Source of the DNA: Ruminococcus sp. YE71 | Lineage (GTDB): Bacteria > Bacillota > Clostridia > Oscillospirales > Ruminococcaceae | Length of the DNA: 48,470 nt | Direction: 5' to 3' | NCBI RefSeq assembly: GCF_900119155.1 | Contig: NZ_FPIR01000024.1 | Coordinates: 1-48,470 of the forward strand | Shown here: positions 20,401 through 48,470 of the stretch, piece after piece | How positions within the stretch are numbered: position 1 is the stretch's first letter | Layout of the letters: the number at the start of each line of letters is the position of its first letter | The notes under the pieces: generated by a model | The model's database searches: none | Seen by the model: only the letters and a program-made list of their open reading frames with translations | Told to the model about the DNA's origin: nothing | Translations under genes and position numbers: made by a program

Positions 20401-22779
20401 AAAATCTATGTGCTTTCTGACAATCTGAGCACAAAGAAAAACAGACAGCGTTCAGTTGCTTCGATACTTTCATCTGATGCCGAGGTGGTTTTCATGACAC
20501 CTGAAACATTCGGCATGATACCGATGAGTGACGAATATCAAATCGACTACCTTAACCGGAATATAGATCAGTACCGTAAATATCTCGAACAGTTCGATAG
20601 CAGATGGAGTACCTCAGAAGAAAAAATCAGCATTAAGGCAATAGAAGCTGCAATAAAGAAACTTGAAGAACAGCTTGAGGAATTGACGGAAAAACACAGA
20701 GATAACAGCTATACTTTTGAAGATTTCGGGTTTAACTACCTTATCGTCGATGAGTATCATCTGTATTTCAAAAATATGTATCAGCCGACAAAGATGGGCA
20801 ATATCCCCGGATTACAGAACAGCCCGTCAAAACGTGCTGAGGATTTCCGAATGAAGATCGGGTATATGCGCGAACAGTACGGTACCGGATTTATGACGCT
20901 GGCAACGGCAACACCGGAAACCAATTCGCATCTTGAATGGTACAATATGATGAGCGTTTGTGACCCGGAGGGACTGCAAAAAGCCGGAATAATGACAGCT
21001 GATGACTGGATCAAGTCTTACGTTGTTATTGAGAGCAAGTATGCACCGTCACCGAGCGGTTCGGGACTTGTACTCAGAAAGCAAGCTAACTCATTCAATA
21101 ATGTACCGGAACTTAAAATGCAGATTCACGAATTTGCGGACATTGTTCCGACAGAAAAAACGAATATAATTATTCCGAAGCGTTACAGCGGTAAGGAGAT
21201 AATCGTAAGCTGTGAACAGAGCGAAGCACAGAAGGCGGCTCTTGAATCATTTATGGAGAGGGCAGAGCGCATACATTCGGGCGGTGTTTCTCCCGATATA
21301 GATAATATGCTGCTCATAATGCATGAATCCAACCTTTGCAGCTTAGACCAAAGATACTTAGACCCGGCGCTGCCGAGTGACCCGAACGGAAAGCTCGAAA
21401 CGTGCGCACGGTTGGTGAAGGAGTGGTACGATAAGAAAAATGACAGCAAGGGAGTACAGATCGTATTCCTGGATCGCGGCGTAAACGAAATAAACGGATT
21501 CTCGGCATATAATGCTCTGAGAGATGATCTTGTGGCGCAAGGCATACCGCGTGAAGAAATTTGTATGGCGAACGACCCGAAAAATGACAAGGAGCGTGAA
21601 GCCATGTACGATGATCTTCGTAACGGCAGAAAGCGAGTTGTAATTGGTTCGCGTCAGAAGCTGGGTACTGGCGTTAATATTCAGAACAAGGTAGTTGCTA
21701 TGTATAACATTGATCTTCCCTTTACTCCGGCAAATAAGAAACAGGGCGAGGGCAGAGGTCTGAGACAAGGAAATGAAAACTCAGAGGTAGCCGTGTACAC
21801 CCTTGTTACCAAAGGATCATTTGATGCGTACATGGCAAATCTGCTCGGAAACAAGGAAACGGGACAGCAGCAGCTTCTCGACCCCGAAATAGCTTGTTCA
21901 CGCTCGATCTCTGATATTAGTGAAAGTGCTATGACATTCAGGGATATGCAGATTGCCACAACTGACAATCCGTATCTTGCTGAGTTCCTGACACTCAAAG
22001 ATGAGCTTGTACACCTTGAAGCACTTGAACGCGATCACAATAGGCTGATAATTGAACTTGAACGCAAAATAAAACATGAGTTGCCGCAGCAGATTGAGAA
22101 TATTGAATCTGTAATTCAAAAGGAGACCGATGATCTGAAACGCTTTGAGGATAGTAAGCCCGAAAAATTCGAGATGATGATTAACGGTGTAAAGATAGAC
22201 GAACGTGAAAAATGCGCGGCATACATGGAACGAACCAAAGCCGCGGCAGCAACAGCAGACGAAAGCGTTCTCGTTGGCTACTACTCCGGATTTCCTGTCT
22301 ATATTTCTCCGAGTAAGGTATATAGTGAAACGATGTTCACTTTGCGGTCAGCGTATGAGATAAGCGTACAAGGAAATTTCAAATACAGAACCGATTACGG
22401 AACTAAAACCAATGACGATCAGGCGAATATTGGCAATACAACGAGACTTGAAAACATATTCGCTAACAGCTTGCCTAAGCTGCTGAAACAGAACAACGAA
22501 CGTCTTGAAAAGCTGAATACCGATTTGCGGCTTGCAAAGGAAACCGTAGAGAAACCGTTCGATCATGCGGAGGAGTTAAAGACCAAGCGTGAAAGAATGG
22601 AGTTCTTGACTAAGCAGCTTACAAACGATAAAAAAACAAGTAACTTAATGGATGATACTCCGGAGGATGATGTATTCTTTGCTATGGAAGATGCAAGTCC
22701 GGCGGATGATCCTGATACGGAAGTTCAGAAAAAGCCGGATACGATGATGAAAACAACTTCCGGCAGAATAAAGAGGTAA
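11413..22779 (+). CDS. Giant polyvalent protein: YodL-like, MutS-I-like, N6-adenine methylase and SNF2-type helicase
   Basis: 3788 residues, cytoplasmic or transferred; no signal peptide. Residues 1-80 resemble the ArdC N-terminal ssDNA-binding region (M-S-F-N-D-A-L-M-L). Residues 243-350 contain a YodL-like unit (Y-Q-I-Y-Q-L, G-H-S-L-S-I-S-D-V). Two related segments near 930-1020 and 1160-1220 share S-W-E/K and G-x-x-L-T features. Residues 1647-1722 resemble MutS domain I (L-Y-K-V-G-D-F-Y-E-I-Y-G). A methylase spans about 2165-2420: motif I L-E-P-S-M-G-I-G at 2272-2279 and catalytic N-V-P-F at 2339-2342. A SNF2-type helicase spans about 2930-3500: H-D-V-G-A-G-K-T at 2947, D-E-Y-H at 3113 and a motif VI-like Q-G-E-G-R-G-L-R-Q near 3444. 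A coiled coil follows near 3530-3580. Likely role: protecting, modifying and remodelling transferred DNA (inference from domain content). Confidence 0.9.
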   Translation: MSQLVSYKQRYDEALNHIADKSSFKDFLDFTIKLNEMSFNDALMLFYYDPSIEMAAAPDEWKVLGRRVKRDANGIPVIREDGKGVFLFSDKDTVGAPLPERPILDVNDLYNINRMLRVRYETKFVSIEEALNQLASDYFDKHSDKLNELCSNYDEETKDSIAYTYKSCLRYAASVRCEYGKNDSSFAMAKELYIDNRIFSDTVFFKNFCALLQDGTHEMLNDFEKTVTDYLNKKNNNENKCKYQIYQLKSGDEYRGIRFMSMETIKRDGIQLSQNDYRLVYEGEIREFEGNATLEALYKKFNTDRPDDFKGHSLSISDVIAVSVDGKDTAYYCDSFGFKEMPEFFREKELVQDESETAKVAEPDSKMLLAQVFPDMFGGELVNAYEIYDDVNGKRTELRFLTHGRDFTAAEILTDDHEPIRFALDSLEEMSDEDAKYLNELLRSFDHSKNTLVDSMTVTEYRKMLDSATLSLDAFDLHINLSSIDEIVMFASENKVVGRVFLNEYGFIQFDDNRVDNKINYYDPMETVECAALEKDVTEFLNSTSGVSLKTVNGNEITAIPLVNSTAIRTALKHLADYVYREYNEELDFKYTLNHLEHIDLAYTIIDDDNDAEHELTVYADLTNFTLVTEIDGRHFKTDQYDSIDQMNRNVFDGLHFDDLIAFNTEEYERITKEYGENEPAAVPVPEVAELNAESAEVSSAEVPVITDENIIYEILKHDQFFNNTAADIHEFFSAEHSTEERITFLKETINDDFSQIFLGDGDNVYGYKTYDWGIVLWEGNYLTRTKEVDLPWGEVAEIYSFMVENGIISSDSEEIDSDIEDVYFSADDDVDEMEDNGEQQSFFVDLPAEKPKSKKGGRKSKKEETVQRNLKATAEISDEMIDFVLKCGSTERESLERITAYYQKNKNEYDNVEFLKAEYCGTMRKYVSYLPTKEIVSLNQIGRLKVTSRDSRGYFFPLSDGAYVQLTARFDENGITIGEGTRSEAIVSRHISWEEAAGRIEAMFMNGTFCAKEIIDRAEDNELTDISASLWYLNQDTDSEVYQYFIPEEMFKGGFPDSTERIKNALYNKDTLQEYIDGLEQFIADYAQNRDILRWHFHEPQVLLNRLKDIQIERRQFDSSLDNQPTYEHFVSEDEIDDIILDSHFGKKFSFAAYLPEEHTDKEKADYVKNYYGWGGGSTRGGWVSYESKGFSLTRGDYSHSKPECTKTISWKEYVSRVEKFIADDVYIRRDDHLERIRDCLWDIKDYIEEQNQYRNGTINYYDKEYENRRYKKNIDILNDYGIRTDVVLQRMTGKLISASASDLRAGDVIRYDDHIMEVEEVSESGITMRYCDADTFGGILQSSRLSLIHDEWVDEMNEKGIAFISRDQRDEALADEDAETLLPEKIDLTETENNQPGETEAVKITNTLVHRNYKALCKLYPDVMSGAHISEIYSAEGFDDLVIDRYGTQLIMSHNYVQNSDIMYDPRIDFKIDDEKQTVTAVSYEQSALGIYDEYTEGSVGQKDCNNFVQQWLKNLGNQPYRLSRVYLNYNDCDLAIDYDENGIIVKIDGDDEARAAYIKENNISFKEEKKIHQVITNAGSDGGIDDKMEYSSVEEAVKAGDDYLADGYLGYAVYNQETKLIEKIEGDFPAERAFSDEVLKINGITERYYGNIMLYKVGDFYEIYGEEARIASEKLGLYLTRKQGKEMCGFPDHAKNDYIDKLREAGYVVLVTDKDNDRTDGFKLSVGDVIYLPPQKMLDSRFKPVMTDEVYAEIVEANEENVRMRTYKDAELTEHNGQQTIFSDAAWSDRSRTWQDKLDNIGYRYVGDAELIRAQREQRDSSALKEVVFVCSANETSLAEIKDTVLSYGTTVTDGNKLTLFTSENYIEEVKKIIDLYGGGILFDNENNQIYPEIEEKTITADKVAVGDRFRHRVTGEISEVVSLTGALEWYTDQCTITTDKGSYATTENIGYDKLLNNDFYEYIGRIEQEQTITVTDNNKVTENKKTDIPTVKNLNQLKKAVKPGMVFEISEHGVRPQCVGELRYISSVNTVGFTSQRFGADGKPDGKDRHMEWGKASEWTFNGNEYTSHLEDGSVLMSFHFVDSPEPARIQENKAENEAAEDTVTVSYSDYSDTETTENQQMSMFDDQSPIEESVETNNSATWQKTQSKAQNYVFDPDNITERGARKRFAANYEAVTLLKKLEAENRNATADEQKILAKYVGWGGLKDAFDANNASWADEYAKLKELLTDSEYSAARSSMLTAYYSSPEIINGIYTALGNLGFKGGNVLEPSMGIGNFFAQYPADWKDNSQLYGIEIDDLTGRIAKQLYPEAAIQIKGFEKTAYSDNSFDVIIGNVPFGDFGVNDKRYNKLNLNIHDYFLAKSIDQVRPGGVIAVVTSTFTLDKKTEKFRNYLAARSELLGAVRLPKGTFADTDTATDILFLQKREGMTTIMPEWTKVGYNEDGFRLNEYFIKHPDMILGTIKKNTRYGEDSENIDIIADPTRGTLDEQIQEAVSKIRGRITESELARLSMQNGSDEEVIPADPNIPNQTYTIIDSGEVYFRNNEIMQKCKESGKRLERIKGMCKIRDIGMQLIRAEADGCDDREMLKLQSQLNSEYDRFVKKYGYLSDSANSVFSSDRYYNTICSFEVKEKEDDTVKYSKAAIFYRRTIQPEVEVLKVDTPQDALIVSIDKLCRVDIAYMSELTSMPAEEVISSLKGKIYRDPAKIKDDDPLSGYVEASEYLSGDVREKLRTAKLVAAIEPEFNDNVSVLESIQPQMLQPGEIVLQLGHPIVETDDYNQFIEEYANVNVDYKNTVTRTPLGEYKLVNRTFGTSEAETVIYGTKRMDCYEILVRQLNGRDLKVNDRIDLPDGSHKYVVNEAETRKAQEKGKQMEAAFKKWIWDDPERSDKYVKLYNDRYNCNVLRTYNGEGLSHPGMNPDIKLYPHQQNAVARAMYGNMLLAHDVGAGKTYTMGCIAADRVSRGLASRVLWLSPKSIIKQSADEVQKLYPNLKIYVLSDNLSTKKNRQRSVASILSSDAEVVFMTPETFGMIPMSDEYQIDYLNRNIDQYRKYLEQFDSRWSTSEEKISIKAIEAAIKKLEEQLEELTEKHRDNSYTFEDFGFNYLIVDEYHLYFKNMYQPTKMGNIPGLQNSPSKRAEDFRMKIGYMREQYGTGFMTLATATPETNSHLEWYNMMSVCDPEGLQKAGIMTADDWIKSYVVIESKYAPSPSGSGLVLRKQANSFNNVPELKMQIHEFADIVPTEKTNIIIPKRYSGKEIIVSCEQSEAQKAALESFMERAERIHSGGVSPDIDNMLLIMHESNLCSLDQRYLDPALPSDPNGKLETCARLVKEWYDKKNDSKGVQIVFLDRGVNEINGFSAYNALRDDLVAQGIPREEICMANDPKNDKEREAMYDDLRNGRKRVVIGSRQKLGTGVNIQNKVVAMYNIDLPFTPANKKQGEGRGLRQGNENSEVAVYTLVTKGSFDAYMANLLGNKETGQQQLLDPEIACSRSISDISESAMTFRDMQIATTDNPYLAEFLTLKDELVHLEALERDHNRLIIELERKIKHELPQQIENIESVIQKETDDLKRFEDSKPEKFEMMINGVKIDEREKCAAYMERTKAAAATADESVLVGYYSGFPVYISPSKVYSETMFTLRSAYEISVQGNFKYRTDYGTKTNDDQANIGNTTRLENIFANSLPKLLKQNNERLEKLNTDLRLAKETVEKPFDHAEELKTKRERMEFLTKQLTNDKKTSNLMDDTPEDDVFFAMEDASPADDPDTEVQKKPDTMMKTTSGRIKR
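12612..12627. repeat. Degenerate copy of the dispersed palindrome (15 of 16 bases)
   Basis: TCTGACACATGGCAGA, inside the giant gene, differs from the consensus at one base. It may be chance or a decayed copy; it encodes L-T-H-G-R. Confidence 0.35.
17842..17857. repeat. Dispersed palindrome, copy 3, inside the giant gene
   Basis: An exact TCTGCCACATGGCAGA within coding sequence (A-T-W-Q in frame), in the low-complexity linker just before the methylase domain. It adds in-frame codons without breaking the gene. Confidence 0.85.
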
Positions 22780-27510: not shown

Positions 27511-27870
27511 ATGATTATTAAGTTATCAAATATACATTTTGATTCATATAGCGATATTTGTATTTATTCAGATAAGTGTGTCATATACACTAAATATCTG
27601 ATTATTTATATCCAGTATGAATTTTTCAAAGCATATCCCAATTATGGTCTTTCTCCCGAACAGCTTGCAAATATCCTAAGTGATCTTTATGGTTTTATGA
27701 AAATAGAAAAAGAAAACGTTAAGGAAGATTTTATGATAGATACATTCTTGACATGGGAAGAATTATGTATGGCAGCGTCTTTCATTGAAAACATAAAGCT
27801 CTTTGAAAAAAAGATGCTAAATAGTATATTAAAAAAATGCTATTTAGAAATAATAACTCAAAATTGCTGA
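27511..27870 (+). CDS. Hypothetical protein of the AT-rich island
   Basis: 119 residues from ATG 27511. AGGGTGG lies about 6 bases upstream, and the GTG at 27502 would overlap that site, so the ATG is preferred. It is rich in Ile, Tyr, Lys and Asn. The first 45 residues are beta-like (I-I-K-L-S-N-I-H-F-D-S-Y-S-D-I-C-I-Y-S-D) and the rest helical. No signal peptide or known motif. It starts about 29 bp from the opposite-strand gene and ends 14 bp before the MuF-fusion gene, so it could form a small unit with it. Function unknown. Confidence 0.6.
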   Translation: MIIKLSNIHFDSYSDICIYSDKCVIYTKYLIIYIQYEFFKAYPNYGLSPEQLANILSDLYGFMKIEKENVKEDFMIDTFLTWEELCMAASFIENIKLFEKKMLNSILKKCYLEIITQNC

Positions 27871-35913: not shown

Positions 35914-35989
35914 ACAAGGTGTGTGATGCGTGAATCATGTATCTTGCAAAGGGCGTAAGACCCCAAAAACTTCAAAAAGGAGATCGACT

Positions 35990-38900
35990 ATGAAAAAGTA
36001 TGTTGAACTTGGGCGAAAAAAGAGTTGTAAAAGTGTTTTTTCTTTTTTTTTCGTCTCATTATTATTATCCTTGACAACCGGAATAACAGCTTTTGCAAAG
36101 GATTGGGAGAGCTTAAGTGCATGGATAACCAAACACGCAACTGTACGAACTATTTGGCTCGATCATATTAGATCGTTTGGTTTTCTAATAATCACTTTTT
36201 TAGCAGATGTGATAAATGGATTTGATAAAGCGATAGATAAACTGATAGAATTGAATTTGTATGAGTTGATCAAGGATATATTCAATATTAAATCAACTAT
36301 CTACCCAATTGCAGGTGCTGTCGCATCTGCGGCTTTGATATTTGCTACGTTACTGCTCTTTTTGAATGCTGATAAAGCAAGGATAAGTGATTTTTTGCGA
36401 AATATTCTGTGCAGTGCCATGCTCATAATTGCGCTGCCGGCACTTTCCTCGACAGTTACCGATTTGAAAACAAAGGGTACAAGTTTTGCAGATACTGCTT
36501 TCGATGGTTATGCTGATTATAGTATTGATGATGGTTCGGGAACAGTACAGGAAGTAAAACTCGGAGACAGAATCGTAATAAATCAGCTATATGATATGGG
36601 TGAATCCATAGATAATAATGAACCTACACTTGTATCTGAAAAAATCACCGTAGATACGATAAATATCAATGAAGCTCTTGACCCCGATGAATATGAGAAA
36701 AAACCAAAAAAGAATTTAAAATACTATTATACTGATGCATATTCTTTTCAAACCGATTATAAAGATTTGAATGAACTGGAAAAACTAAAACTGATAGATA
36801 GAATGTCAACAAAGTATTCCGATGTCTCTGGACCTCATACAGAAACCGGCATAGCTGAATATCTTACCATTTGGGAAAACAAATCGGATTCTACAGTAGT
36901 AAAATATGGTAATGTATATTATTGTAAGGTCGGTGGAAAGATACACGCAAATGATGGCGCTACGATCTATTGCGTTGTCAAGAAAGAAGGAAACGAATGG
37001 AATCCCGCTTATCAAATATTTGAAACAGGTGAGCTTTTACCTGCATATGAGGATGTTGATGCTGTTAGTGAAGCCGAAAAAGAAGGTAAAAGTTTAGCAG
37101 AACAAAGAGAACTGTATTATAGACCGATCAGATGGGGAACTGAATGGAAAAGGGGGCTTGGTCTTGCTTGGAATGAAGTTAAGCAATATGATAATGTTGA
37201 CTTTGTTTGGAATTATCAGCATTTCCTTTGTCTCAAATTAGCCAATGCGCTTTCCGCTAATAGAATTGGAAATCACTTGCCCCCTAATTGGTATTATTAT
37301 GTTAATCCAGCTTGGATAAGCACACATATTTTACAAGCTTCTACAATTTATGATGCACTACAAGCACTTGAATCCTTGAAAATCGAGTATCAAGGTCATT
37401 CCTTATCCGTAATGGAATGGCTTAATATTGAAGAAAACATCGGCATAATAGAAAAACTCAAAGAAGAAGAAAAAGAACTAAAGGTAATGGGAAAAAACGT
37501 CGATGATATTAAGTGGAAAAACCTTGCGGAATACGATGAAGATGATGCTGAGATAGGTGAGATCATAAATGCAGTATTAGTTGGCGGAAAAGAGTATGCT
37601 AACGAATCTTTGTATCGTTATCACTATAATTTTTGGGGACTTCTCGTAATGTTGATAGTAACTGCTGTTTGTATGCTTTTTGCAGGTATCAAATTAGCTT
37701 CGCTTTTATTCGATGTTTTATTTGCACAGATCGTTGCTCCGATAGCACTTGCAACTGATATGACAAATAGCGGCAGGGGCAAACAGGTCATTATGAATTT
37801 GTTGGGCTGTAATATTTGCTATATCGCTGTTATTTTCATTTTAAGGCTTTATCTTGCGGTAATGAGTGCTGTCTATGAGAAGTACCCTTTAGGGACCGGA
37901 AGTATAAGTGACGGCATGGTAAATTTTTGGGTCATTCTTTTTATCACACTTGCAGGCGCTAAATTCGTGATTGACGGACCCGATCTCATTGTAAAGCTGA
38001 CCGGAATTGATGCCGGCGTTAAGAGTGGTCTGAATACGATCATGGGTCTGAGAAGTGCGGCACAGCTCACTAAGGGCGCTGTTCAGGGTGCCGTTGGTTT
38101 GGCAAAAGCTCCTTCTAAGATTGCGGGAGCTGTTGGCAGAGGAGTAGGAAAGGCTGCGGCAGAGGGTAAGAGTATTTCAAATAGCGTTAAGAATGCCGAG
38201 GGAGCAGCCGGGAAAACAGCGGCTGTTGCCGGAGCTGTATTGGGTCATGCTCCAGTATTAAGCAGTGCTCGTAAAGGCTTTAAAGGCGGTTATTCAGAGA
38301 ATGCAAGAGCGATTCAAGACTATGATAACGCAAAAAGTATAATGGACAGCGGTGAAAGCAGCACGGCTGTTCCGAATGAAAGTTCAAAAGTAAGCGGCGG
38401 TAATTCAGTTTCAGGTTCTTCATCGGCTGTATCGGGAACAGCTGAACACAGTTCCGGAGAAAGCAATAATTCATCATCGGAAAGTATGGGCGGCAGTTCG
38501 CCAGCGAGACGGCAGATGAATGACAGAGTTAATAACTCCGGTGATGGAAAGAGAGGACTTGACCCTCGGACAGTACAAAGAGAACGCCATAAGCCCATTG
38601 ATGAAACAAACACGGCAGTACCAAATGGTACAAGCAACACAGACAGTAATACCGCAGCAAGTACCGCTGATACACCATCAACAGCCGGGGGGAAAGCGGT
38701 TAGCGGAAATGCTGATGTTCGTTTCTTTGGAGAGGATGCAAACGGCAATCTTGTATCTGCCGTTGATGACGGTTCGGGCAATTTTGTGAGCAATAGCGGA
38801 AAGCCTTTGTCGAATGTTAAGGGATACAGCGGCACAGGCAACAGCGGTAAACTCAACATGGCTGCCGTATCTTCAACCGGAGGTCTGACACCTGTTAAGG

Positions 38901-39505
38901 GCGCTAACGGCGGTTATATCGACAACGATGGAAATCTGTACAATGAATCTCAGATTATCGCTTTTGGCGGCTCAGGATTTGCATCGGGCGGTCTTTCTGT
39001 CAAGGGTATTGACGGTGCCGGAAATCTTGTCGATGCGTGTCCTGACAGCTCGGGCGGCTTTACAGACAGCTCCGGCGGTGCATTACAGAATGTCGGCGTT
39101 TATACTTCGAGAGGGAAAATGATGTCGAGTGTAATGAAACCTGTTGTCACGTCAGCACAGACAGCCGGATTTTCTTCTGCTCCGGTCAGCTCCGATGCTC
39201 CGACACCTTCATATTCGGCTCCAGTACAAACTGCTTATTCAGCTCCAGCCGAAGCGCCGGGTGGCGGTATTATCACAAGCGGCAGCTCAACTTCACCGAT
39301 TGATGAAGCATACTTCTCCGAAGCCTATACTGACAGTTCCTATGCTGATTTTGACCCGTTCGGTGATGTCGGTGCAAGCAGCGGAGGTTTCTATGATCCG
39401 AGTGATTTTACCGGAAGTAAAACAAATCTGAAGCGCACCAAACCCGCCGATTCTAAGAAACCTCGTCAGAAATTCGACCCGAATATGAAAAAGCCCAAAA
39501 ACTAA
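35990..39505 (+). CDS. VirB6/TrbL-like polytopic membrane protein
   Basis: 1171 residues from ATG 35990. AAAAAGGAG lies 8 bases upstream; the frame is open from 35930, but that start lacks a ribosome site. The N-terminus is a signal/anchor helix (F-S-F-F-F-V-S-L-L-L) encoded over a T6-C-T9 tract. Further hydrophobic helices occur at about 45-62, 100-125 and 135-155. A soluble loop spans about 160-540, then three or four helices (about 545-690) and a Gly/Ala-rich amphipathic region. The C-terminal 400 residues are low-complexity Ser/Gly/Ala/Pro with repeated D-x-x-G-N-L-V and S-S-G-G-F motifs, ending in a basic K-K-P-R-Q-K tail. This is the layout of VirB6/TrbL-type channel scaffolds in Gram-positive ICEs. 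Confidence 0.8.
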   Translation: MKKYVELGRKKSCKSVFSFFFVSLLLSLTTGITAFAKDWESLSAWITKHATVRTIWLDHIRSFGFLIITFLADVINGFDKAIDKLIELNLYELIKDIFNIKSTIYPIAGAVASAALIFATLLLFLNADKARISDFLRNILCSAMLIIALPALSSTVTDLKTKGTSFADTAFDGYADYSIDDGSGTVQEVKLGDRIVINQLYDMGESIDNNEPTLVSEKITVDTININEALDPDEYEKKPKKNLKYYYTDAYSFQTDYKDLNELEKLKLIDRMSTKYSDVSGPHTETGIAEYLTIWENKSDSTVVKYGNVYYCKVGGKIHANDGATIYCVVKKEGNEWNPAYQIFETGELLPAYEDVDAVSEAEKEGKSLAEQRELYYRPIRWGTEWKRGLGLAWNEVKQYDNVDFVWNYQHFLCLKLANALSANRIGNHLPPNWYYYVNPAWISTHILQASTIYDALQALESLKIEYQGHSLSVMEWLNIEENIGIIEKLKEEEKELKVMGKNVDDIKWKNLAEYDEDDAEIGEIINAVLVGGKEYANESLYRYHYNFWGLLVMLIVTAVCMLFAGIKLASLLFDVLFAQIVAPIALATDMTNSGRGKQVIMNLLGCNICYIAVIFILRLYLAVMSAVYEKYPLGTGSISDGMVNFWVILFITLAGAKFVIDGPDLIVKLTGIDAGVKSGLNTIMGLRSAAQLTKGAVQGAVGLAKAPSKIAGAVGRGVGKAAAEGKSISNSVKNAEGAAGKTAAVAGAVLGHAPVLSSARKGFKGGYSENARAIQDYDNAKSIMDSGESSTAVPNESSKVSGGNSVSGSSSAVSGTAEHSSGESNNSSSESMGGSSPARRQMNDRVNNSGDGKRGLDPRTVQRERHKPIDETNTAVPNGTSNTDSNTAASTADTPSTAGGKAVSGNADVRFFGEDANGNLVSAVDDGSGNFVSNSGKPLSNVKGYSGTGNSGKLNMAAVSSTGGLTPVKGANGGYIDNDGNLYNESQIIAFGGSGFASGGLSVKGIDGAGNLVDACPDSSGGFTDSSGGALQNVGVYTSRGKMMSSVMKPVVTSAQTAGFSSAPVSSDAPTPSYSAPVQTAYSAPAEAPGGGIITSGSSTSPIDEAYFSEAYTDSSYADFDPFGDVGASSGGFYDPSDFTGSKTNLKRTKPADSKKPRQKFDPNMKKPKN

Positions 39506-39568: not shown

Positions 39569-39952
39569 ATGGGACTTGTTCCTAAATCTACAAAACAAGA
39601 AAACAAGATACATAACAGTATCAGTTTCTTCAAGATCGTCGGACTTATTGTGACGATTGTGATATGCGCTGTGATTATAAATCCTCTCTTTTTTGAAGGA
39701 GTTTGGTCTAAGCTGCTTTTTACCTTGTTTAGCTGTGCTGTTTATATTGTATGTGTTCTCAAAGCACCGACCGACCCGACAAAGCTGTTTATTCAAGGCT
39801 TAAAGGACTGGATATTCTACGCTGTGCAGCCTAAGTCTATATACGGAGAGAGCAGTGAGGAATACAAGGAATACAGAAGGAGGCAAGAGCAAAGTGAAGC
39901 TGCTAAGGAAAGAAAACAAGAAAAGAAAGCAGAAAAGCGGAGAAAATCTTAA
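39569..39952 (+). CDS. PrgI-family (VirB3-like) membrane protein
   Basis: 127 residues from ATG 39569. GGAGG at 39556-39560 is 8 bases from this ATG and too close to ATG 39563 or to the TTG that opens the frame. The N-terminus M-G-L-V-P-K-S-T-K-Q-E-N-K-I is followed by two hydrophobic helices (about 22-42 and 49-66) and K-A-P-T-D-P-T-K-L-F-I-Q-G-L-K-D-W. This is the PrgI pattern seen next to VirB4 in Gram-positive conjugative elements. The tail is highly charged (Q-E-Q-S-E-A-A-K-E-R-K-Q-E-K-K). It would sit in the membrane beside the VirB4 ATPase. Its 3' end overlaps that gene by 59 bp. Confidence 0.78.
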   Translation: MGLVPKSTKQENKIHNSISFFKIVGLIVTIVICAVIINPLFFEGVWSKLLFTLFSCAVYIVCVLKAPTDPTKLFIQGLKDWIFYAVQPKSIYGESSEEYKEYRRRQEQSEAAKERKQEKKAEKRRKS

Positions 39953-42566
39953 TCCGTCAAAGATAACCGGCGGCTATGTTACATTCGAGCGTACTGAAAG
40001 CGGCGGTGAAAACGGATGTGTAAAACTTACCGATGTGATGAAAAAGAAAACCTATTACGTTGGTGCATTAGCAATTATGGGAATAGATATTTTTCATTAC
40101 AGCGATTCAGAACGAAGCAGTGTATTTAATAATTTTGCACAGGCATCTGCCGCATTGGAGATCGAACACAAGTATATATTCACTGATATTGTACCCGATC
40201 TGAGTACGCAAAAGGATTTTCTCAGATATAAAAGCACTTACTCTGATGATTTTGTCAGATATAATCTGTTACAGAGACTTGATGAATATGAAAGATTATC
40301 CAACGAACACAGAGATAGATTGTCGTATCTGTTGCTGTATGCCGATAGTCAGAAACAGCTTGAGGATTCAGTGGAAATGTTTTCTCGTTCTATGTCCGAC
40401 GTACTTATCAAAAGGCTCGATCAGTATTCGCTTGAAATGCTTTTGCATAAAACCGCTTGCGTTGATTCAGAACCTCGCAAGAAACACAGTACGGATTTGA
40501 ACGAGTATATCTATCCTGACCGAATAGATTTTAAACAAGACAGATTTACTATTGATGGGATCTGCCATACTTCGGTGTTTGTAATTAACGATTATCCGGC
40601 GAATCTTAATGACCTTACAGTTGCAAGCTATGTGCTTCAAAATAGTGATGTCAGCATCATGCTTGACGTAAAAAAGCGTGACCGTGAGGAACTGAAAGGC
40701 GAAATAAAGCGTTCTATGGACGAGCTTATGAGCCGGAGCAGCATTAAGCAGAATGTTTCGGATGCTATGGATAATAGCACAGAGTTTGAGAAAATCCAAT
40801 GGCTTTATAATAATATTGTTAATGGAAATGAACAGGTATATCAGGTCACATGGCGCTTTATATTGTCGGCAGAGCAAGATAATGAGCTTGATGACAAGCT
40901 GAAAAAACTCCGTAAAATACTTGAAGATGACGGTATTCACGGCTTCATTCCTATCAATCTGATGATAGATGAATACTTCAATATGGTGCTGCCGTCGAAT
41001 AAGATCGGCAATCCTTTTCCGCTCTATGATACATTTTCAAGGCAGTTTCCGTTCTACTATCAACAGCATATTGACCCTATGGGAATGTACTTCGGACAGA
41101 CAGATACCGGAGGGCTTGTGCTGTTAAACACCTTTACGCGAGACAAAAGCCGACCATCTTTTGATATGATCGCTATGGGTGTTAAGGGCGGCGGTAAGTC
41201 AATAACTCTCAAAACAATGCTCGAAGATCAGCTGCTTATCGGAAACAAGATAATGGTTATTGATATAGAAAACGAGTATTCTCCGATGGTAAAGGTCTAT
41301 GGCGGTCAGATAATTCGTATGACAAAGGACAGTTGTATCAACCCCTTGCAGCTTAATATCACAGTCGATGCGGCGGCAGAGGAAATGACCGAAAAAGAAG
41401 CCGCAGAACAGAATTTCCTGCAAGAATTATCGAGGATACAAACGTTTTTCACGGAACTGAATCCCGATTCTTCGGACGATGAACTGCGTATCCTTTCAGA
41501 CCTTTTGCTTGAAGCATACCGTCAGAAAAACATAGACAACACGACCAATCTCAGCACGGTAAGCAACGAACAATTTCCTATTTTCAGCGATGTTCTGAGC
41601 ATCTGTAATGCTCGCTATGATGCCGCAGACAACGAGTTTGACAAGGAAATACTTGCCCGATTAAAGCCAAAGCTGAGACAGCTTTCTAAGGGCGGCAGCT
41701 ATGAAATATTCGACCATTACACAAACGTTGAGGTCGAAAATAAAGACCTTATCGTATATAACGTTAAGTCATTATCGGAAATGGACGAGAAGATCTATAA
41801 CGCACAGCTGTTCAATATATTGTCGATGATGTGGGCTGAGATATGCAAAAACAGAGGAATAAACCGCAACATAATCAATCCTTATGACCGCAAATATGTT
41901 GTCGCGCTTATCGACGAAGCGCACAGATTCATCTCGGAATACAAGCCGATGTGTACAGAATTCATTGAAAAACTTGTGCGCCGTTCGAGAAAATACTTTT
42001 CGGGACTGTGGTTTGCAACACAGTCTATCCTCGATTTTCTTCCCAACGGTATCAATTCATCGGGGAGAGTTGCGGACAGGATAAAGATAATTTTTCAGCT
42101 TGTGCAGTATAAAGTTTTGCTGAAACAGGAAAGCTCCGCACTCCCTGTTCTGCATCAGGCTTTCCCTCAGTTTACGGAAAGTGAGCTGAAAAGTACAACA
42201 GATTTTGAGCCGGGTGAAATGCTTATGGCTCTTGACAGCGCACGCAACAAGCTGCATTGTACGCGCCGTGCGACCGATCTGAATCTGCTTTATATGGGTA
42301 ATTCGGAGGATACACAGGTGATTTTCAACCGCTATTTCTCAGAATTGTATATCGAAAACAATAACCCGAACGCTCTTGATGAAGCAGATTACGGCTATCA
42401 ACTAAGCGGAAATGAGCAGCTCAGAATTGACTTCAAGGAAGAATTTGTTGAGTATATGCATAAGAGAATGAACCTACAAATTGGATATTCAGACACACTC
42501 GATGCTATTATCGCAGACGGCACGGACGATCTGATAGGCTCGCTCATGCGGAAAGCAGAGGTGTAA
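39894..42566 (+). CDS. VirB4/TraE-type conjugation ATPase
   Basis: 890 residues from GTG 39894. AGGAGG at 39878-39883 is 10 bases upstream; the ATG 39855 that opens the frame has no ribosome site. The N-terminal half is a VirB4 CagE/TrbE-type domain (Y-Y-V-G-A-L-A-I-M-G-I-D near the start). The ATPase half has Walker A G-V-K-G-G-G-K-S at 429-436, V-I-D-I-E-N-E-Y-S-P after it, and Walker B L-I-D-E-A-H at 672-677 followed by R-R-S-R-K-Y and W-F-A-T-Q-S motifs. It powers assembly and transfer through the mating channel on the cytoplasmic face. It overlaps the PrgI-like gene by 59 bp, so the two are translationally coupled. Confidence 0.92.
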   Translation: MKLLRKENKKRKQKSGENLNPSKITGGYVTFERTESGGENGCVKLTDVMKKKTYYVGALAIMGIDIFHYSDSERSSVFNNFAQASAALEIEHKYIFTDIVPDLSTQKDFLRYKSTYSDDFVRYNLLQRLDEYERLSNEHRDRLSYLLLYADSQKQLEDSVEMFSRSMSDVLIKRLDQYSLEMLLHKTACVDSEPRKKHSTDLNEYIYPDRIDFKQDRFTIDGICHTSVFVINDYPANLNDLTVASYVLQNSDVSIMLDVKKRDREELKGEIKRSMDELMSRSSIKQNVSDAMDNSTEFEKIQWLYNNIVNGNEQVYQVTWRFILSAEQDNELDDKLKKLRKILEDDGIHGFIPINLMIDEYFNMVLPSNKIGNPFPLYDTFSRQFPFYYQQHIDPMGMYFGQTDTGGLVLLNTFTRDKSRPSFDMIAMGVKGGGKSITLKTMLEDQLLIGNKIMVIDIENEYSPMVKVYGGQIIRMTKDSCINPLQLNITVDAAAEEMTEKEAAEQNFLQELSRIQTFFTELNPDSSDDELRILSDLLLEAYRQKNIDNTTNLSTVSNEQFPIFSDVLSICNARYDAADNEFDKEILARLKPKLRQLSKGGSYEIFDHYTNVEVENKDLIVYNVKSLSEMDEKIYNAQLFNILSMMWAEICKNRGINRNIINPYDRKYVVALIDEAHRFISEYKPMCTEFIEKLVRRSRKYFSGLWFATQSILDFLPNGINSSGRVADRIKIIFQLVQYKVLLKQESSALPVLHQAFPQFTESELKSTTDFEPGEMLMALDSARNKLHCTRRATDLNLLYMGNSEDTQVIFNRYFSELYIENNNPNALDEADYGYQLSGNEQLRIDFKEEFVEYMHKRMNLQIGYSDTLDAIIADGTDDLIGSLMRKAEV

Positions 42567-44478: not shown

Positions 44479-44886
44479 ATGGGAAACACGATCTATATAC
44501 GAGATGTTTCAGATGAAACATTGCGGCAGATTGATGAATTGTCTTATAAAAGAGGAATGTCTCGTAATCAGCTTTGCAATGAAATTCTGAAAGTTTACCT
44601 TGATTGTCAGCGTGAGGGGATGCATAAAATGCTCCCCGATGTGGTTCAGTCTGTTCTCAGAAGTGAGATAAAAGATATGCGTTCAGAGGTCAGATCTATG
44701 ATGAATCTGATACTGATTTGCGCTGTGAGAATGACAAAAACGAATGAAAAACTCAACGATTTTTTGTTCCCGCAGCTTGAAAATCTCAGCGTTGACGGCA
44801 TGGATTCAAAGCAATTGTTTGCAATTCTGTCGTCTGAAAATGATTTTTCAGACGATGAAATCGAAAAAATCATCGCTGCGCTGTGA
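44479..44886 (+). CDS. Ribbon-helix-helix DNA-binding protein next to the tandem array
   Basis: About 135 residues from ATG 44479; ATG 44458 is an alternative overlapping the previous gene by 14 bp. Residues 2-42 fit the RHH/CopG fold: T-I-Y-I-R-D-V as the beta strand, then D-E-T-L-R-Q-I-D-E-L-S and G-M-S-R-N-Q-L-C-N-E-I-L. The rest is helical with an acidic end and may oligomerise (S-E-I-K-D-M-R-S-E-V-R-S-M-M). The stop is 7 bp before a five-unit 44-bp tandem repeat, the usual place for the operator or centromere of an RHH protein. It could be a partition adaptor, a relaxosome accessory factor or an autorepressor. Confidence 0.75.
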   Translation: MGNTIYIRDVSDETLRQIDELSYKRGMSRNQLCNEILKVYLDCQREGMHKMLPDVVQSVLRSEIKDMRSEVRSMMNLILICAVRMTKTNEKLNDFLFPQLENLSVDGMDSKQLFAILSSENDFSDDEIEKIIAAL

Positions 44887-44893
44887 AAAAACG

Positions 44894-45113
44894 GTATGGC
44901 TATACATACTAAAAAGTATGGTCGTACATACTCGAAAGTATGGCTATACATACTAAAAAGTATGGTCGTACATACTCGAAAGTATGGCTATACATACTAA
45001 AAAGTATGGTCGTACATACTCGAAAGTATGGCTATACATACTAAAAAGTATGGTCGTACATACTCGAAAGTATGGCTATACATACTAAAAAGTATGGTCG
45101 TACATACTGTTTT
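44894..45113. repeat. Tandem array of five 44-bp units (ten 22-bp half-units)
   Basis: Each 44-bp unit has two related 22-mers, starting GTATGGCTATACATACT and GTATGGTCGTACATACT. Each half-unit carries inverted arms AGTATG and CATACT around a 6-base centre (GCTATA or GTCGTA). The units are essentially identical; only the end of the last one diverges. There are no variable spacers. It has the features of iterons, a centromere or a relaxosome binding array. Confidence 0.92.
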
Positions 45114-45119
45114 GAAAAA

Positions 45120-45188
45120 AAGTGCAAGCACTCAAAAGTGTAAAAAAAGTCCGCACTGCGGACTTTTTCGTTAGAAGTGCTTGCACTT
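45120..45188. other. Nested hairpin structure in the 44.9-45.4 kb intergenic region
   Basis: The outer arms, 45120-45132 (AAGTGCAAGCACT) and 45176-45188 (AGTGCTTGCACTT), are exact reverse complements, and each arm is itself a short palindrome. The terminator-like hairpin at 45144-45168 lies between them. The 523-bp gap 44887-45409 holds the array, this structure and the promoter at 45350. I see no gene in it. Confidence 0.75.
45144..45168. terminator. Bidirectional terminator-like hairpin
   Basis: GTCCGC/GCGGAC with an ACT loop, extended by A5 and T5 to an 11-bp stem. The run of As on one side and Ts on the other would work on both strands. Confidence 0.75.
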
Positions 45189-45349
45189 CCTTTATGCTCA
45201 TTAACTTTTTTACCACTGTGAATTTCAAAAACAATGATTACTTTGTAGTTAAAAGCTGTGGAAACTGTGTCGTGAAAAAAGCAAGGTCTATGCAAGTTTG
45301 ATACTGATTTTTAGGCTTTAAAAATCTTTGCTTTTGAATCATATCTTGC

Positions 45350-45409: not shown

Positions 45410-45724
45410 ATGCTTGACATTGAAGAACTGAAAAGAATGATAAAGAACGATGACCATGTGATCGTTTCAGGTCATGCCGCACAAAGGCTCAGAGTGCGCG
45501 GCATAAGATACGGTGATATTGTTTCGGCGGTTGACAACGGTGAGATCATCGAACAGTATCCCGAAGATTATCCATATCCGAGTTGTCTTGTTCTTGGCAT
45601 GGCATTGAACAAGCGTTATCTGCACGTTGTCTGCGGTTCAGACGGTGAATATATTTGGATAATCACAGCATACTATCCATCGGAGGATAAATGGCTCGAT
45701 GACTACAAGACAAGGAGGTCATAA
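45410..45724 (+). CDS. DUF4258-domain putative toxin
   Basis: 104 residues. The sequence follows the DUF4258 pattern: S-G-H-A-A-Q-R-L-R-V-R-G-I, then D-I-V-S-A-V-D-N-G-E-I-I-E-Q-Y-P-E-D-Y-P-Y-P-S-C-L-V-L-G, L-H-V-V-C-G and a C-terminal I-I-T-A-Y-Y-P-S-E-D-K-W. DUF4258 proteins are predicted RelE/BrnT-like RNase toxins and often lie directly upstream of a YgiT-type zinc-finger gene, as here (2-bp gap). It has a near-consensus promoter. A plasmid/ICE maintenance role is the usual interpretation. Toxicity itself is not shown by sequence. Confidence 0.82.
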   Translation: MLDIEELKRMIKNDDHVIVSGHAAQRLRVRGIRYGDIVSAVDNGEIIEQYPEDYPYPSCLVLGMALNKRYLHVVCGSDGEYIWIITAYYPSEDKWLDDYKTRRS

Positions 45725-45726
45725 GT

Positions 45727-45957
45727 ATGAAATGCTTTTACTGTAAAGGCGATATTACCGAATCGGTCACAACATACATGACCGAACTGGAAAACTGTAT
45801 CGTTATCATCAGAAATGTCCCATGCCTGAAATGTTCACAGTGCGGAGAGGTCAGCTTCACAGGTGCTACGATGAAGAAGATAGAAGCTATTCTCGATAAG
45901 TGTGAGGGACTTCTGACGGAGATCGCTGTGTTCAACTTCAAAGACACAGCGGCGTGA
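45727..45957 (+). CDS. YgiT/MqsA-type zinc-finger antitoxin
   Basis: 76 residues; AAGGAGG just before the ATG overlaps the end of the toxin gene. Two Cys pairs, C3-F-Y-C6 near the start and C-L-K-C-S-Q-C-G in the middle (about 33-39), form the YgiT/MqsA N-terminal zinc finger. The C-terminal helix has A-T-M-K-K-I-E-A-I-L-D-K-C. No separate helix-turn-helix domain is present, so this is the short, zinc-finger-only version. Paired with the upstream DUF4258 protein, it is the likely antitoxin. Confidence 0.82.
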   Translation: MKCFYCKGDITESVTTYMTELENCIVIIRNVPCLKCSQCGEVSFTGATMKKIEAILDKCEGLLTEIAVFNFKDTAA

Positions 45958-46056: not shown

Positions 46057-46578
46057 ATGGCAAAAGTAAAGAAAACATACACACTTGATAAAGAAGCAGT
46101 AGCTGTCCTTGAACAGATCAGCCTGTCTGAAAATATTCCGGTATCGACGCTGCTTAACAGCTTCATTCTTCAGAAGGGTGTTGAACTTGGAATACTGGAG
46201 ATCGACGAAGTGAAAGACAGCATATACGATGACCGTGAGATCAAGTATAATTATACGGAAGGTCAGACGAGATTTGAAAACCTTTTGCTCACTTCAACTT
46301 CAAAAGTTGTTGACACAGCCGACAAAACAAACTCTACCATACGCGAGGTTGATCTTCGTGTCGGTGACGTTGAGAAGATCGTTTATCAGCTTCGTGATCT
46401 GATAAACATTTTTATAGGCTACTCGCTCCCGCAAGACGGTTCGGTTCCGTTCAGTTCTGCTGATGAGGACAGCGACAATTACGATGGCAGCATCTTTTTG
46501 AAAAAATCGTTGGAGAATTACCGTCGTAAGGCAGAAAGACTGAGAACCGACAGCACGAATTTCGGAGGTCGGAAATAA
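46057..46578 (+). CDS. RHH-type relaxosome accessory protein
   Basis: 173 residues with GTGAGGAG 8-9 bases before the ATG. The N-terminus K-K-T-Y-T-L-D-K-E-A-V-A-V-L-E-Q-I followed by I-P-V-S-T-L-L-N-S-F-I matches a ribbon-helix-helix domain (residues 3-45). The rest is helical (V-D-L-R-V-G-D-V-E-K-I-V-Y-Q-L-R-D-L-I), with an acidic linker and a basic tail. Its stop shares a base with the relaxase start (TAATG), so the two are translated together. This is the usual position of MobC-like nicking accessory proteins. It probably binds the inverted repeat at 45985 or the oriT. Confidence 0.76.
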   Translation: MAKVKKTYTLDKEAVAVLEQISLSENIPVSTLLNSFILQKGVELGILEIDEVKDSIYDDREIKYNYTEGQTRFENLLLTSTSKVVDTADKTNSTIREVDLRVGDVEKIVYQLRDLINIFIGYSLPQDGSVPFSSADEDSDNYDGSIFLKKSLENYRRKAERLRTDSTNFGGRK

Positions 46579-48470
46579 TGCCCGCCGTTGTGCTTAAAAC
46601 TTCGTTCCGTTATACATGGGACATAGGCGGTTATCTTGACTACATGGAAAGACCCGAAGCGTTCAGCAACAGAATAGCTGACAAGAAATCGGAGTATTAC
46701 GATTATCTCGAATACATGGGTAACGATGATAAATCTGACGGTTTGTTTTCAGCTTCAAGTGATCTTCTCGGTGAAGCTGAAAAACAGCAGCTTCGTCAGC
46801 TTGAACGTTCAGCTATGGAACAGGGGTGTCCTAAGTATCTTGGCGTTATCAGCTTTGACAACAACTATCTCATTCAGAACGGCTGGATAGTCGGAACAAC
46901 TCTCGATAAGGATAAGCTAAAGGACTGCGCACGAAAAGCGATAGCCGCTATGATAAATGAATCTGACAAGCTCGATGCGGATAATGTAGTGTGGATTGCG
47001 GCAATACATACCAACACGGATAACGTCCACATACACTTTCAGCTAATAGAAAAAGAGCGCCGTGAGGACAGACGAGTGACCTATTCCGGAAAGGGCAGGG
47101 ACAAGATAGAAACCGGCGCTTTTGAAAAACTTAAATCAACTGTTCTGAGTGACACTCTGACCCGGAAACAGACTCCGATCATTACTGAAATCGAACGGAA
47201 GATACTTGTGCCGTCTATCACGGAAAAGTTTTCACCGACAGCAGAGGTAAATGATCTGATGAACGATCTGCCGCCGACCAATAAGGCATGGCAGTACGGA
47301 CGCGCAAAAATGCTGCCGTACCGTGACAGGATCAAACGCTGTGTTGATGAAATAATCGAGAGCGACAGCGAGCTGTCTGCACAGTTTGACGAGTTCAAAG
47401 CTAAGCTCGAAAATATGAGCAGACAGTATCGGGAACTATACGGAAAACGAACCGACATAAAAACTCCGGTTGAAGAATATGCCGTAAATCATATTGAAGA
47501 TTTTTATAACGCTGCCGGAAACAAGCTGCTTCAGGAAATATACAAGCTGAAATACGAAGATGATGCTCACGAACCTACAATGACGGAAGAAGTAAAAAAA
47601 GCTGCCGCACCCAATCTTATAAAAGAAAAAAATAGGAATTTACGTTCAAATGTTCCTATCCCGGAGGATAGTGATCCGGTTGATGAGAGCTACACCTATG
47701 AATATGAAAAGACTGAACATGAAAAACAAAATATCAGCGATAACAGAAAAGGATATAAACTCGATTGGTCGAAAGAATATAAAAAGGCTCAGAAGATCAT
47801 CTACAACAGAGATTCGACAGCCGATGATATAAAAACAGCCGAAAAAATATTGCTTGCTGAGAGTGGCAAAGGAAATGCCCTTGCGACTTTTGCACTTGGT
47901 AAGCTGTACTCGACTGAAAAGCTCGGAACAAAAGACGAAACAAAATCTTATCAGTATTATGAACTTGCGCTGACTGCTTTTAGGGAACTTGAAAAGACAG
48001 CGGACAAGCAAAAGCCGTACTTACAGTACCGGATAGGCAAAATGTATCAGTACGGACTTGGAACAGAAACAGATTACATTGAAGCGCATGATTGGTTTGA
48101 ACGTTCTGCTAATCAGAACAACAAGTATGCACAGTTTTCGCTTGCCAATATGTATTATTACGGCACCGGAGTTGAACAAGATTTTCAGAAAGCCTTTGAA
48201 TGGTATGAAAGATCATATCAGCAAGGAATGCCGTATGCGGCATTCGCACTTGGTCAGATGTACAGCCGGGGACAGTATGTTGATAAGGATGATGAAAAAG
48301 CGCAAAAATGCTATAAAGAAGCACTTCAAGGCTTTCTCAATATGGAAACGGATGCTGCCGATGATAACCTGCTGTATAAAATCGGGCAGATGTACCGTGA
48401 CGGAAAAGGAACAAAATCAGATATAGCAAAGGCATTGAAGTTTTTTGAGAGATCGGCAGAACTGAACAAC
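46578..48470 (+). CDS. MobP-type relaxase with Sel1 repeats, 3' end outside the window
   Basis: At least 631 residues, open to the last base. The start ATG overlaps the stop of the RHH gene (TAATG) and has GGAGG about 12 bases upstream. Residues 1-200 are the relaxase: conserved G-G-Y-L-D-Y-M early (Y12, Y19 and Y22 are candidate nicking tyrosines), A-A-I-H144-T-N-T-D-N-V-H151-I-H153-F as the metal-binding His motif and Q-Y-G-R-A-K near 252. A charged helical linker follows. From about residue 430 come Sel1-like repeats (A-x-F-A-L-G-K-L-Y, A-Q-F-S-L-A-N-M-Y-Y-Y-G-T-G, A-A-F-A-L-G-Q-M-Y). It would nick oriT and pilot the strand through the channel; the Sel1 part may bind the coupling protein (inference). 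Fits MobP2/MobP3-type relaxases of Clostridia ICEs. Confidence 0.87.
   Translation, partial: MPAVVLKTSFRYTWDIGGYLDYMERPEAFSNRIADKKSEYYDYLEYMGNDDKSDGLFSASSDLLGEAEKQQLRQLERSAMEQGCPKYLGVISFDNNYLIQNGWIVGTTLDKDKLKDCARKAIAAMINESDKLDADNVVWIAAIHTNTDNVHIHFQLIEKERREDRRVTYSGKGRDKIETGAFEKLKSTVLSDTLTRKQTPIITEIERKILVPSITEKFSPTAEVNDLMNDLPPTNKAWQYGRAKMLPYRDRIKRCVDEIIESDSELSAQFDEFKAKLENMSRQYRELYGKRTDIKTPVEEYAVNHIEDFYNAAGNKLLQEIYKLKYEDDAHEPTMTEEVKKAAAPNLIKEKNRNLRSNVPIPEDSDPVDESYTYEYEKTEHEKQNISDNRKGYKLDWSKEYKKAQKIIYNRDSTADDIKTAEKILLAESGKGNALATFALGKLYSTEKLGTKDETKSYQYYELALTAFRELEKTADKQKPYLQYRIGKMYQYGLGTETDYIEAHDWFERSANQNNKYAQFSLANMYYYGTGVEQDFQKAFEWYERSYQQGMPYAAFALGQMYSRGQYVDKDDEKAQKCYKEALQGFLNMETDAADDNLLYKIGQMYRDGKGTKSDIAKALKFFERSAELNN

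Follow-up and report, generated by a model that had tools for sequence, protein, structure and literature searches.

A phased 22-bp repeat array between two RHH genes in Ruminococcus sp. YE71, probably the accessory-repeat half of a conjugative transfer origin

The DNA analysed here (the window) is a stretch of 48,470 nucleotides from Ruminococcus sp. YE71, one contig (NZ_FPIR01000024.1) out of the 43 in the genome, and it carries a tandem repeat array between two genes for RHH proteins, in the company of conjugation genes. The features of the locus, with the method or evidence for each in brackets, are:

35930..39505, + strand: T4SS membrane protein of the pLS20_p028 family (NCBIfam NF045890, E 7.5e-52, 176.4 bits, cut-off 150)
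39855..42566, + strand: VirB4/TraC-like T4SS ATPase (Pfam P-loop_TraG, 44.7 bits, cut-off 25.8)
44479..44886, + strand: RHH1, 135 aa, relaxosome auxiliary protein of Aux1/SmpO type by profile (hhalign)
44894..45108, no strand: accessory-repeat array (Tandem Repeats Finder, unit positions, shuffle test)
45121..45132, no strand: ossA-like palindrome AGTGCAAGCACT, candidate RHH1 site (identical in the close relative L072; placed as the published ossA)
45149..45163, no strand: hairpin GTCCGCACTGCGGAC (sequence)
45176..45187, no strand: ossB-like palindrome AGTGCTTGCACT, the arm adjoining the core, candidate RHH1 site (sequence)
45189..45199, + strand: oriT core CCTTTATGCTC (8-mer TTATGCTC common to the class)
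46057..46578, + strand: RHH2, 173 aa, auxiliary protein of Aux2 type by profile (hhalign)
46578..48470, + strand: MobL/MobP2 relaxase with Sel1 repeats, cut by the contig end (Pfam, NCBIfam)

The T4SS genes lie upstream of the array, their run being closed by RHH1 and then by the array itself; downstream of the array comes a hairpin within an 18-nt inverted pair (89% complementary), and the order at the locus is RHH1-array-oriT-(toxin-antitoxin-like pair)-RHH2-relaxase. The VirB4/TraC-like ATPase also matches the NCBIfam VirB4-type model (E 1e-101, under that model's cut-off). An in-frame ATG at 44458 would lengthen RHH1 by 7 residues, and the TAA of RHH2 and the ATG of the relaxase overlap as TAATG. 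The relaxase scores 238 bits against Pfam MobL (cut-off 28.5) and 195.1 bits against NCBIfam MobP2, slightly below the cut-off of 200. The toxin-antitoxin-like pair consists of a DUF4258 gene and, after it, a gene for a YgiT-type zinc finger; it occupies 45410-45957 between the oriT core and RHH2 and is not present in L072; the side of oriT that bears it is the one expected to enter a recipient first. Farther upstream, the window encodes a protein of 2239 aa with 16 SpaA-type domain stretches (2881-9600) and one of 3788 aa with domain matches to YodL, MutS-I-like, N6-methylase and DEAD-helicase (11413-22779). At the other end, window positions 47966-48470 agree at 504 of 505 bases with the end of another contig of the same genome (C27), which continues through the remaining relaxase frame and then a 783-aa ORF that by eye resembles a VirD4-type coupling protein; this overlap may be either the element's continuation or a second copy.

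Tandem Repeats Finder described the array as 4.9 copies of a 44-bp period with 100% matches, bearing out the perfect identity of 44-bp units noted in the initial annotation, which had been made from the letters of the sequence. The array consists of ten 22-bp units, with ten GTATG half-sites at exact 22-bp steps and ten CATAC half-sites 11 bp beyond each, such that the two half-sites take turns every 11 bp; the claimed alternation of half-units centred in turn on GCTATA and GTCGTA held when unit positions were determined. The arms proposed for every unit (AGTATG...CATACT) are complete in nine of the ten, the first unit having G, not A, before GTATG. The pattern GTATG-6 bases-CATAC is its own reverse complement, and all ten of its occurrences in the window fall inside the array. 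Repeated 7-mer pairs in the array region numbered 506, against 13.8 expected as the mean of 400 dinucleotide shuffles, none of which (0/400) gave a value as high. The array does begin 7 bp past the RHH1 stop (TGA at 44884-44886), as first described; its end had been put at 45113, which takes in 5 bp (GTTTT) outside the repeat, the repeat itself ending at 45108. The array is regular to an unusual degree.

What follows the array has the layout of a known kind of transfer origin. The hairpin stands between two related palindromes (GTGCAAGCAC, GTGCTTGCAC), with the phased repeats 5' of it, and the centres of the ossB-like and ossA-like palindromes are 55 bp apart. The published ossA likewise has accessory repeats on one side and the hairpin on the other (PMC8136818). 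The hairpin core CCGCACTGCGG is common to the oriTs of the window, pLS20, L092, L095 and L100. The core CCTTTATGCTC at 45189-45199, which is presumed to hold nic, reads CTTTATGCTCATT in the window against the published CTTATGCTCTT, the 8-mer TTATGCTC being exact and the surrounding bases different. That 8-mer occurs near a MobL/MobP2 relaxase in 28 of 29 plasmid records, typically past a hairpin and inverted repeat and with repeats ahead, and also in the seven loci of the window's family. The class is defined by the oriT of pWBG749, with its core CTTATGCTCTT, IR1-IR3 and accessory repeats AR1-AR3 (O'Brien 2015, PMC4652767), and the window has an adjacent relaxase, the core (with variation), inverted repeats and hairpin directly 5' of it, and accessory repeats 5' of those. 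According to the available text of the same paper, mobilisation of pWBG749 is undetectable once AR1-AR3 are all removed, and pMG2200 and pHTbeta carry distinct repetitive sequences at the equivalent place (PMC4652767). The array therefore belongs to a known kind of oriT element, and transfer-essential accessory repeats are already published; the initial annotation correctly saw a repeat zone related to RHH proteins, and of its alternatives the second, an accessory binding zone of oriT, was correct. New here are the order of the genes, the regular alternation and a division of labour proposed for the two RHH proteins. As a separate observation, in pLS20 (L088 27745-27794) the published nic, after GAATCGGGGGCCGG (27781-27794), lies ~40 bp beyond the shared TTATGCTC core, whereas the pWBG749 work places nic inside the shared core (PMC4652767); one of the two positions may need remapping.

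The two RHH proteins belong by profile to different auxiliary families. Alignment of the RHH1 family with the plasmid Aux1 family by hhalign gave 97.0% (E 8.6e-11, RHH1 residues 3-97 of 135) and with the Aux2 family 39.9%; the RHH2 family gave 96.6% with the plasmid Aux2 family (E 5.5e-10, profile columns 2-148 of 156) and 10.9% with Aux1. The four cross comparisons among these families came to 39.9, 10.9, 2.8 and 2.5%. Profile comparison thus types RHH1 as Aux1/SmpO and RHH2 as Aux2, and upholds the initial description of the array's neighbour as an RHH protein, although its Pfam RHH matches are far under cut-off (RHH_1 13.4 bits vs 20.5). Aux1/SmpO genes are found between oriT and relaxase, whereas RHH1 precedes oriT; this is a matter of gene order and not of protein family. 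AlphaFold2 models were too poor for use in fold searches (pLDDT 49.3 for RHH1, 38.8 for RHH2). PDB searches at E<=1 with the RHH1 profile and the RHH2 sequence matched no TraM or TraY chain, and a phmmer run on the RHH2 sequence by itself hit neither an Aux2 nor a TraM chain there; entries 7nuv and 7qnq bear the pLS20 Aux2 sequence. The C-terminal domain of pLS20 Aux2 is reportedly a TraM-like tetramer.

Two described systems resemble the locus closely. In the staphylococcal pWBG749 family, which has the proteins SmpO and SmpP, as in the window, a MobP2-class relaxase is accompanied by the core 8-mer, a hairpin flanked by sites and accessory repeats 5', and the pWBG637 protein at the SmpO position falls in the Aux1 alignment that matches RHH1. 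That family differs in having one to three AR copies where the window has ten 22-bp units, in placing smpO between oriT and relaxase where the window has RHH1 upstream of oriT, and, for pWBG637, in an Aux2-type gene after rather than before the relaxase. SmpO, an RHH protein, binds ossA and ossB, both outside the accessory repeats (Yui Eto 2021, PMC8136818). pLS20 of Bacillus subtilis shares with the window a MobL relaxase (RelLS20), RHH auxiliaries of both families, a stop-start overlap of Aux2 and relaxase genes, the CCGCACTGCGG hairpin, 5' repeats and a pLS20_p028-type T4SS protein; its order is oriT-aux1-aux2-rel, against RHH1-array-oriT-pair-RHH2-relaxase in the window, and it has three TGTGCAT repeats where the window has ten units. 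Both of its RHH proteins are essential, Aux1 being bound on a 25-bp stretch containing TGGTACCA and Aux2 being placed on the 5' part that bears the three TGTGCAT, and the overlap of gene 57 with the relLS20 start is reported (Miguel-Arribas 2017, PMC5675868). The gene order of the window is not described in the available parts of the pLS20 and pWBG749 papers.

Relatives were collected from genomes and plasmids. The close relative, from an uncultured Ruminococcus MAG (L003/L072), has RHH1 80% and RHH2 76% identical to the window's, with the core-side sites AGTGCAAGCACT and AGTGCTTGCACT identical and the RHH1 ribbon identical as well. Its array, at the equivalent place, has six units 21-22 bp apart that alternate between GTATG..AGTATG and GTATG..AGTACG, and inverted arms are missing from five of the six, only the last unit having them; spacing and two-type alternation are therefore kept between the two arrays, and hairpin potential is not. 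For this reason we rejected a hairpin role for the units. For the alternation the initial annotation had offered recent expansion or selection for two site types; recent expansion is not its sole cause, since this relative keeps the 22/44-bp rhythm with another unit sequence. Relaxase and RHH1 searches in genomes of the window's family found five further elements (L046, L047, L049, L051 and L052), all with the order RHH1-repeats-hairpin-core-RHH2-relaxase and with RHH1 18-29% identical to the window's. The RHH1 profile matched in 7 of 394 genomes of the order, and the relaxase profile in 5 of these 394 and 1 of 391 genomes of the class, and none of the elements from these profile searches entered the analysed set; an RHH1 protein search of plasmids and viral contigs gave no match.

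Among plasmids, tblastn found 914 records with a MobP2-type relaxase, and the relaxase/oriT neighbourhood was read in 28 of them, picked for spread and nine of them as Priestia, as well as in pLS20. Aux2-type genes lie downstream of the relaxase in Priestia, Bacillus pumilus, Exiguobacterium, CP053689, Listeria grayi and pWBG637, so both RHH types are present there too. A third short RHH-like gene lies between aux1 and the relaxase in 9 of 13 Priestia plasmids (L093, L094, L105, L107-L111, L115); the remaining four have arrays without it. Of 29 loci searched, TTTATG[CT]TC occurred upstream of the relaxase in seven; apart from L064, L065 and L068, the other loci matched the relaxase domain weakly and partly, or not at all.

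Repeats 5' of the core proved to be a common feature of this class, an excess being found in 31 of 34 regions tested, although these counts are not of independent events, as the elements sampled share ancestry. Of 31 upstream regions, 29 exceeded shuffles at p<=0.025 (exceptions L051, p 0.06, and P111, p 0.087); the commonest 7-mer of the region Bsub is a poly-A run. In three plasmids with oriT inverted relative to the genes, the repeats are still on the 5' side of the core when read on the same strand as the core, with an excess in two of the three (p 0.0025, 0.0025 and 0.18). The test left out L096 (core 8-mer absent from the stretch), L114 (core at 2093) and the distant L059, L064, L065 and L068; of these distant loci, L065 carries the 8-mer on the strand opposite the genes, and the other three carry it on the gene strand, upstream of the relaxase. 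By eye, L064 and L068 show one or two palindromes and no long array, and long arrays are therefore not universal. Same-strand repeat distances in 22 representatives peaked mainly at 11, 21-22, 31-33, 42-44, 54-55, 64-65 and 75 bp, with minor peaks off the 11-bp grid at 12, 14, 23 and 29, and the periodicity score (lags to 70) was 0.68 at 11 and 0.63 at 10.5, against <=0.20 at 10, 11.5, 12 and 13. Two 22-mers also alternate in a Paenibacillus larvae plasmid (L097 792-940), and their sequences are unrelated to those of the window.

Covariation was used to ask which RHH protein follows the array. Mantel tests were run on 30 elements (Lgrayi without a ribbon entry) and later on 33 in two groups; their permutation p-values ignore shared ancestry, and the ribbons were aligned by eye. 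In Priestia (n=13) the array correlated with the Aux2 N-terminal ribbon (r 0.79, partial 0.80, p 0.0002) and not with Aux1 (r 0.07, p 0.23). Raw correlations of the array with relaxase and Aux2 C-part were 0.65 and 0.48, yet the first 12 residues of Aux2 kept partial correlations of 0.63, 0.73 and 0.80 controlling for relaxase, Aux2 C-part and downstream gene, and the converse partials with those residues fixed fell to -0.10, 0.06 and 0.04. By eye, the pairings of Aux2 ribbon with array type were RRTISL with GGTTCAC (6/6), RMKL with GGGAC (3/3) and RHKVTV with GTCGCCA (3/4). The core-proximal arm behaved differently: in Priestia the K type of Aux1 ribbon went by eye with CCCCAC (CTCCAC in P111) in six of seven cases and the L/I type with TATCAC in five of six, and over three sets the arm had partial correlations with Aux1 of 0.32, 0.46 and 0.32 (p 0.014, 0.0003, 0.0007), those with Aux2 being not significant (raw r 0.21, p 0.002 in the set of 30). 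In Priestia about 2 kb, including Aux1, separate the Aux2 gene from the array; linkage by itself would thus produce the reverse pattern, and these mosaic combinations outweigh the permutation p-values.

Outside Priestia (20 elements) the array correlated with Aux2 at 0.15, 0.21 and 0.30 for word lengths 4, 5 and 6 (p 0.12, 0.04 and 0.002), the value at word length 5 moving to p 0.08 without L072 and Balt, and no correlation with Aux1 appeared in these 20. Within the window's family alone (seven elements) the array correlated about equally with the two RHHs (0.27 and 0.28, p 0.12), neither significantly. By eye there is a hint that half-site and ribbon residue may be paired: two residues ahead of a Thr in the Aux2 ribbon, Lys or Arg is found in elements with GTATG half-sites (window, L072, L052 and B. 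subtilis L089), and Ile, Thr or Asn in those with TAAATA (L046, L047, L049).

Two plasmids depart from these pairings. In P107 (L107, p-LAD2) array and core-proximal arm match neither RHH type of the plasmid; in P108 (L108, p-LAD5) the Aux1 ribbon mismatches the core-proximal arm, and the ossA position has TATCAC, as the Aux1 type predicts. Both are plasmids of one Priestia strain, and our guess is that the mismatches reflect exchange between co-resident plasmids. Two other candidate array binders were rejected. The first is the protein of 257-306 aa encoded directly upstream of Bacilli arrays. As read from sequence, it begins with a hydrophobic stretch and ends in a charged part that resembles a coiled coil, and the Pmeg1 protein is 94.9-95.6% identical to those of three plasmids that carry a different array; a Priestia gene annotated as MerR has a hydrophobic N-terminus and by eye is near identical across array types.

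On this evidence we consider it likely that a pLS20-like conjugative element has its oriT here and that the array forms the accessory-repeat half of it, with RHH2 reading the array and RHH1 the nic-side palindromes. That the same oriT array is instead read by the adjacent RHH1, or by both RHHs together, seems to us rather unlikely. The RHH1 stop is only 7 bp away, all six other elements of the family set likewise have an RHH1-family gene upstream of their repeats, and SmpO has two binding sites in oriT, to which Aux1 also binds (PMC8136818, PMC5675868), all of which would suit such a reader. Plasmid Aux1, however, is encoded on the other side of the core and the repeats persist; the GGTTCAC array accompanies both Aux1 ribbon types in Priestia; the array~Aux1 correlation is significant in no set; and the window and L072 have different unit sequences despite identical RHH1 ribbons. 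The pairing of the array with its adjacent RHH gene in the initial annotation is probably wrong, since relatives tie the array to the Aux2-type protein, here RHH2, and RHH1 belongs to the Aux1/SmpO type, which binds beside nic in staphylococcal plasmids (PMC8136818). By analogy with the relatives, the window array is probably bound by RHH2, and the GTGC..GCAC sites by RHH1.

Readings outside conjugation fare worse. It is very improbable that the array is an operator or transcription-end structure of the T4SS operon, serving RHH1 autoregulation or forming RNA hairpins: it does follow RHH1 where the run of T4SS genes ends, and the hairpin at 45149-45163 with its T run resembles an intrinsic terminator, but the array is downstream of RHH1 and not at the position of its promoter, RNA hairpins are not the kept feature because L072 has inverted arms missing in five of six units, and in inverted oriTs the repeats keep their place relative to the core. 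In ParR/parC partition an RHH protein sits on phased repeats, an outline that an RHH gene adjoining regular palindromic repeats recalls. A partition centromere, with a single- or two-protein Par system, is more doubtful still, as Pfam matched no ParA, ParM or TubZ among 30 distinct window proteins (the ParA-like ATPase which the initial annotation did not see is indeed not among them), and relatives' repeats stay 5' of the oriT core, including the three inverted oriTs, which together speak against the single-protein partition it had offered; the equivalent repeats of pWBG749, moreover, are needed for mobilisation (PMC4652767). Replication iterons have next to no probability: direct repeats near 22 bp are typical of iterons, but no Rep-type family was found among the 30 window proteins scanned, and plasmids from several replicon clusters, as well as genome contigs, have such repeats at their oriT. 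The partition and iteron readings have no support.

If RHH2 does read the array, multimers of this Aux2-type protein would coat the ten 22-bp units on one face of the DNA, and Aux1-type RHH1 would hold the two GTGC..GCAC palindromes around the hairpin, beside nic, both steps being suggested by covariation in relatives. Other systems offer a model for what may follow. In F, one auxiliary, TraM, acts on distal repeats (sbmA-C) needed for transfer and for the coupling protein, and TraY acts near nic; the TraM sites are required for efficient transfer and not for relaxosome formation, and absence of TraM costs 10,000-fold (PMC12117103, in the text available). TraM and TraY serve here as a working analogy for RHH2 and RHH1; the PDB search at E<=1 showed no sequence homology to TraM, and family membership is not claimed. 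By that analogy the RHH1 complex may aid the relaxase at nic, like TraY and as is thought for SmpO, and the RHH2 array may bend the DNA and offer oriT to the coupling protein, like TraM on its sbm sites; RHH1 and RHH2 together would prepare nic for the MobL relaxase. The proposed coupling step leans on F TraM and on the TraM-like tetramer reported for the C-terminal domain of pLS20 Aux2.

More generally, we lean towards the view that MobL/MobP2 oriTs of Firmicutes carry two independent codes, one read by an Aux1-type protein at the nic sites and one by an Aux2-type protein at the phased array, that the codes assort separately, and that the array reader in pWBG749 is the RHH protein whose gene directly follows that of the relaxase. 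Mobilisation in pWBG749 requires the accessory repeats, and the literature searched, in the parts available, names no binding protein for them in that plasmid. As a rule for locating such oriTs, one can look for phased repeats 5' of TTATGCTC. If the Aux2 pairing is true, both specificity determinants of a common class of Firmicutes oriT would be predictable from sequence, which would bear on which non-conjugative plasmids a conjugative element is able to carry.
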